A DNA stretch of 64,000 nt from contig NKIT01000005.1 in the NCBI GenBank assembly GCA_002256185.1, positions 1 through 64,000 of the forward strand. Reading direction: 5' to 3'. Shown one piece after another: positions 14,953 through 16,164 of this stretch. Each line of letters begins with the position of its first letter. Position 1 is the first letter of the stretch. A program made the position numbers and the translations under genes. The notes under the pieces are model-generated. The model saw nothing but the letters and a program-made list of their open reading frames with translations. It ran no database searches and was not told the origin of the DNA. This DNA comes from Rhodobacteraceae bacterium PARR1 (lineage in GTDB: Bacteria; Pseudomonadota; Alphaproteobacteria; Rhodobacterales; Rhodobacteraceae).

Positions 14953-16164
14953 ATGACCCATGACGCCGAGTTGGAAGACCGCCTGATCCGCTATTGCAAG
15001 GTGGACACGCAAAGCGACGAAACGGCGGCCAGCCAGCCCTCGACCGCCATCCAGTTGGACCTGTCGCGGATGCTGGTTGCGGAATTGCAGGCGATGGGGG
15101 CGGCGGATGTGACCCTGACCGACTATGGTGTGGTGCTGGCAACGATCCCGGCGACGGTGCACACGCCTGCGCCTGTGGTGGGGTTTCTGGCCCATGTCGA
15201 TACCGCACCCGCCTATCATGCCGTGGGGGTCAAGCCCGTGGTGCATCGCGGCTATAATGGTGGCGACATCACCTTTGCCGATGCGCCAGAGTTGAAACTG
15301 TCGCCCGCAAATTCGCCCTATCTGGCGGAAAAGCTGGGCCATGACATCGTGACGGCCTCTGGCACCACGCTTCTCGGCGCGGATGACAAGGCCGGGGTGG
15401 CGATCCTGATGACAGCGGCGCGGCATCTGTTGGACAATCCTGACATCCCGCATGGCACCATCCGTCTCGGCGTCGATCCGCGCCTGCCCGCCGATCTGGG
15501 GGCGGATTTCGCCTATACGCTGGATGGCGGCCGCGCGGGTGAGATCGAGTTTGAGAGTTTCTCAGCCGATGGCGCGGTGGTGCGCATCACGGGCGTGTCG
15601 GCCCATCCCGGCTATGCCAAGGGTAAGCTGGTCAACGCGCTGCATCTGGCGGCCAAGATCGTGCAGACCCTGCCGCAAGCAACTCTGGTGCCGGAACTGG
15701 CCGAGGGGCGCGAAGGGTTCTTGCATCTTTATGACATGCAGGGCGGTGCGGCGGAGGCCACACTGAAATTCATCCTGCGGGATTTTGAACTAGAGGGGTT
15801 GGCGGCGAAGGGTGAGCTTCTGCGGCAGGTCTGTGCCGTGGTGGCCGCGACCGAGCCCCGCGCGTCGATCACCTGCGAAATTCGCCCCCAATACCGCAAC
15901 ATGCGCTATTGGCTGGAAAAGGACATGACGCCTGTGACGCTGGCGCAAGAGGCCGTGCGCGCCTGCGGGATGGAGCCGGTGTCGGTTCCGATCCGGGGCG
16001 GCACGGATGGGTCACGGCTGACGGAAATGGGGGTGCCCTGTCCCAACGTCTTTACGGGCATGCAGGAAATCCATGGCCCGCTGGAATGGGTGTCGGTGCA
16101 GGATATGGCAGCGGCGATGCGGGTGGTGTTGCGGATTGCGGGGATGGTGGCAAAGGCGGATTAA
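14953..16164 (+). CDS. pepT: Peptidase T (M20B), with in-frame absence of the catalytic/metal-binding Glu-Glu segment
   Basis: [51 protein letters not shown]-like, [10 protein letters not shown] all present; [10 protein letters not shown] segment absent between IRLG and [20 protein letters not shown]. Confidence 0.85.
   Translation: [403 protein letters not shown]

Follow-up and report, generated by a model that had tools for sequence, protein, structure and literature searches.

The window analysed here is a stretch of 64,000 nucleotides from contig NKIT01000005.1 of Rhodobacteraceae bacterium PARR1. On its forward strand, at positions 14953 to 16164, it carries an open reading frame that encodes 403 amino acids counted from the ATG. 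This frame was assigned as pepT, the gene of peptidase T (tripeptide aminopeptidase, M20B), by matches to NCBIfam NF003976 (472.6 bits, cut-off 255), to TIGR01882 (380.2 bits, cut-off 285.75) and to the solved PepT structures 3ife, 1fno and 1vix. The Pfam profiles M20 and M20_dimer were both over their cut-offs as well; for M20 the score was 36.7 bits, compared with 61.0 bits in an intact orthologue. The PARR1 protein is 10 residues shorter than its nearest orthologue. With the known peptidase T (MEROPS M20.003, represented by the same two models and three structures) it has in common whole-length homology and fold, and also the His/Asp/Asp/His metal and Asp motifs, whereas the segment that holds the general-base Glu and a zinc-ligand Glu in the known enzyme is missing. 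Apart from this loss of 30 nt, PARR1 pepT is of the ordinary Rhodobacteraceae type.

The gene immediately 5' of pepT, which has the same orientation, encodes a TonB-like protein (Pfam TonB_C, positions 13862-14749). On the other side pepT is adjoined by a peptidase S58 gene on the minus strand (approximately 16164-17270), and just upstream of the latter there is a 13-bp tandem repeat (GGGCAAGAGGACT) present in 4.5 perfect copies at 17320-17378.

The missing segment and its join

Alignment with the nearest relatives revealed that 30 nt, corresponding to exactly 10 residues, are absent from PARR1 pepT and that the loss is in frame. The segment includes the FTPDEE motif, in which PDEE contains the catalytic Glu and the adjacent zinc-ligand Glu. 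An earlier note on this DNA had described an in-frame absence of about 10 codons including the Glu-Glu pair, and the comparison with orthologues supports this description; it had placed the join at about 15471/15472, which the alignment shifts three bases to the left. In DNA and protein alignments with the loci L002, L003 and L005 the join reads CTC/GGC (15466-15471, plus strand), the missing bases falling between 15468 and 15469, a position uncertain by a base or two. The earlier placement took the Gly at the join for the residue that precedes FTP. In the relatives the residue following IRL is Ala, not Gly, so this Gly is better assigned to GRGVD, which puts the join at 15468/15469. The join shows little microhomology, about 0 to 2 bp according to which Leu codon was ancestral. 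A search for repeats at the join found no long repeat, and no slippage mechanism was apparent.

The other metal-binding and catalytic motifs are all in place, as the earlier note had stated together with the intactness of the reading frame. HVDTA (15193-15207), which provides the first zinc ligand His81 and Asp83, is invariant in an alignment of 18 orthologues. The same alignment identified GADDKAG (15376-15396) with the bridging Asp (D144/D145), YTLDGG (15514-15531) with the zinc ligand Asp191, and EIHGPLEW (16066-16089) with the zinc ligand His374, D144/D145, the Asp of YTLDGG and the His of EIHGPLEW being invariant. All four motifs are on the plus strand.

Distribution of the deleted form

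Every one of the 97 orthologues for which the match was readable has the motif PDEE[IV]G, the two nearest relatives among them, in the forms FTPDEEIG (91), FTPDEEVG (3) and FVPDEEIG (3). One further locus, a gene fragment with no usable match, is left out of this count, and some of the 97 loci represent the same genome taken twice (e.g. L002 and L082), so that there are slightly fewer independent genomes. A degenerate pattern search for the joined sequence in 397 genomes of the family gave a match in PARR1 only. The possibility that the short form is a natural variant shared by a clade was rejected on the result that the join pattern occurs in none of the 396 other genomes. A search with spaced motifs returned 29 genomes, and the span was 137 to 140 bases in every match listed; as the permitted gap range began above the PARR1 spacing, this search speaks for a constant spacing in the other genomes and not for the absence of shorter forms.

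Outside the gap, PepT of the nearest relative (L002/L082) is 97% identical and PepT of the second-nearest (L003/L083) 95% identical to the PARR1 protein; both differ from it in having the motif intact. The DNA around pepT is collinear with PARR1 in both relatives, for the nearest one from 11.9 to 17.2 kb. A strain-specific deletion, one of the possibilities named in the earlier note, agrees with these data insofar as they make it lineage-specific. Within the PARR1 assembly neither a second PepT nor, allowing up to one mismatch, an intact copy of FTPDEE was found.

Predicted effect on the protein and age of the deletion

In the M20 family the Glu next to the catalytic Glu binds zinc. The catalytic residues have been identified as D80 and E173 in S. 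aureus PepT1, and as E172 in Salmonella PepT (PMC10394242). A replacement Glu was sought in the sequence of PARR1 PepT, and none was present between residue 168 and the DGG motif. Because both Glu residues are gone and no other Glu lies in this interval, the protein is most likely catalytically dead, and tripeptidase activity is predicted to be absent. The idea that the enzyme is still active, some other acidic residue standing in for the Glu pair, could draw on the Asp residues that directly follow the join, but these Asp residues occur already in many intact orthologues, which argues against a replacement; with the invariance of the EE pair in the 97 orthologues and the lack of a nearby Glu also against it, we regard retained activity as highly improbable.

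Predicted models were compared with 1fno, and both matched it, the PepT fold being kept in the PARR1 model. The TM score was 0.83 for PARR1 PepT and 0.88 for an intact orthologue, with mean pLDDT values of 80.2 and 82.4, respectively. The strand preceding the gap extends over residues 170-175 in the model of the intact orthologue and over residues 170-172 in that of PARR1. AlphaFold is insensitive to damage caused by deletions, so that the model says little about stability.

Outside the gap, dN/dS of pepT relative to the nearest relative is approximately 0.05. When changes were assigned to branches with the help of the two nearest relatives, 8 nonsynonymous changes and 39 synonymous ones fell on the PARR1 branch, compared with 9 and 46 on the sister branch. 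A pepT unconstrained for 10% of the branch would be expected to have gained about 18 nonsynonymous changes, with P = 0.007 for a count of 8 or fewer, and one unconstrained for half of the branch about 60. Relaxed selection on PARR1 pepT was rejected on the basis of the dN/dS value and the lack of excess nonsynonymous change. Judged from these substitution counts, it is unlikely that the gene has been non-functional for at least 10% of the PARR1 branch. The scarcity of nonsynonymous changes implies that the deletion is either very recent, if it kills the gene, or an error of assembly or consensus. The counts fit these two possibilities equally well, and do not fit a new function of long standing by which the protein was reshaped.

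Interpretation of the deletion

We consider a recent in-frame null deletion of pepT in one lineage to be the best explanation (probability roughly 0.6). According to this proposal, a 30-nt deletion would very recently have hit an ordinary pepT, taking away the end of a core beta strand together with the following loop, which would have carried the general-base Glu and the neighbouring zinc-ligand Glu. The protein can probably still be made and may keep a rough M20 fold; the two-zinc site, however, would not be properly held and tripeptides would not be hydrolysed, making this a null allele. That the deletion exists in living cells and abolishes the activity is what we infer from a join seen in one assembly of 285 contigs from one strain.

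The main rival is an assembly or consensus artefact, which would mean that pepT is intact in the organism itself and that assembly, or the choice of a minority read path, dropped the 30 nt. We hold this to be a real possibility, if a rather doubtful one. It is favoured by the draft state of the assembly (completeness 95.23, contamination 1.95), which looks metagenome-assembled and probably is, because of its 285 contigs and because its nearest relatives were themselves assembled from metagenomes; the fully functional appearance of the remainder of pepT and the fact that the lost stretch is among the most conserved point in the same direction. On the other hand, the loss is exactly in frame, the join lacks any long repeat by which an assembler could be misled, and collinearity of the contig with the relative extends to either side of pepT. 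Nor was a comparable loss found in a gap survey in which 0.46 Mb of the PARR1 assembly was set against 1.5 Mb from the nearest relative and one contig from the second-nearest. Among the 122 ORFs with a homologue at 85% identity or higher, seven gaps reached a length of 4 residues or more; that of pepT was the longest, with 10 residues and a flank identity of 0.96, the others measuring 4 to 8 residues and none having flanks as conserved. On this survey a general loss of segments in the PARR1 assembly was rejected. The only gap besides that of pepT in a well conserved region of the 122 ORFs was a 4-residue gap in L214 (minus strand, ORF at offset 773, G000:C53), with a nearly as high flank identity of 0.94.

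The intact reading frame, the remaining metal ligands and the intact substrate-side motifs could also suggest that a catalytically dead PepT has been retained because it took on a new function that is not enzymatic, for example the binding of peptides. This is very unlikely, as the allele occurs in no other family genome searched and neither compensating nor excess substitutions are present; moreover, if the deletion is so recent, the intact state of the gene is uninformative about a new role. The repurposing that the earlier note had also proposed thus finds no backing in the rest of the protein, which evolved as an ordinary PepT, had no excess changes on its branch and kept the other metal and catalytic residues. 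Still less credence can be given to a selected loss of PepT catalysis in the lineage, with the remaining protein, poor in metal, serving a new role in the binding of peptides.

Whether it is an ordinary loss-of-function deletion, as we favour, or an assembly error, the finding has little significance beyond the PARR1 genome and does not represent a new kind of enzyme. It illustrates that pepT can pass annotation thresholds without its catalytic residues, so that automatic annotation would wrongly credit the organism with the activity. If real, the null deletion would be a snapshot of a very early stage in the loss of a peptidase gene, and the loss of PepT may be buffered by other aminopeptidases, those of the M17 and PepN-type M1 families. 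In addition to eight other M20-family proteins, the genome encodes two M17 proteins and has M1 (PepN-type) matches on two contigs. The Peptidase_M1 match is split between G000:C235:12-431 (profile positions 1-140) and G000:C172:8089-8307 (profile positions 145-218), which are probably two parts of a single pepN gene interrupted where a contig ends.
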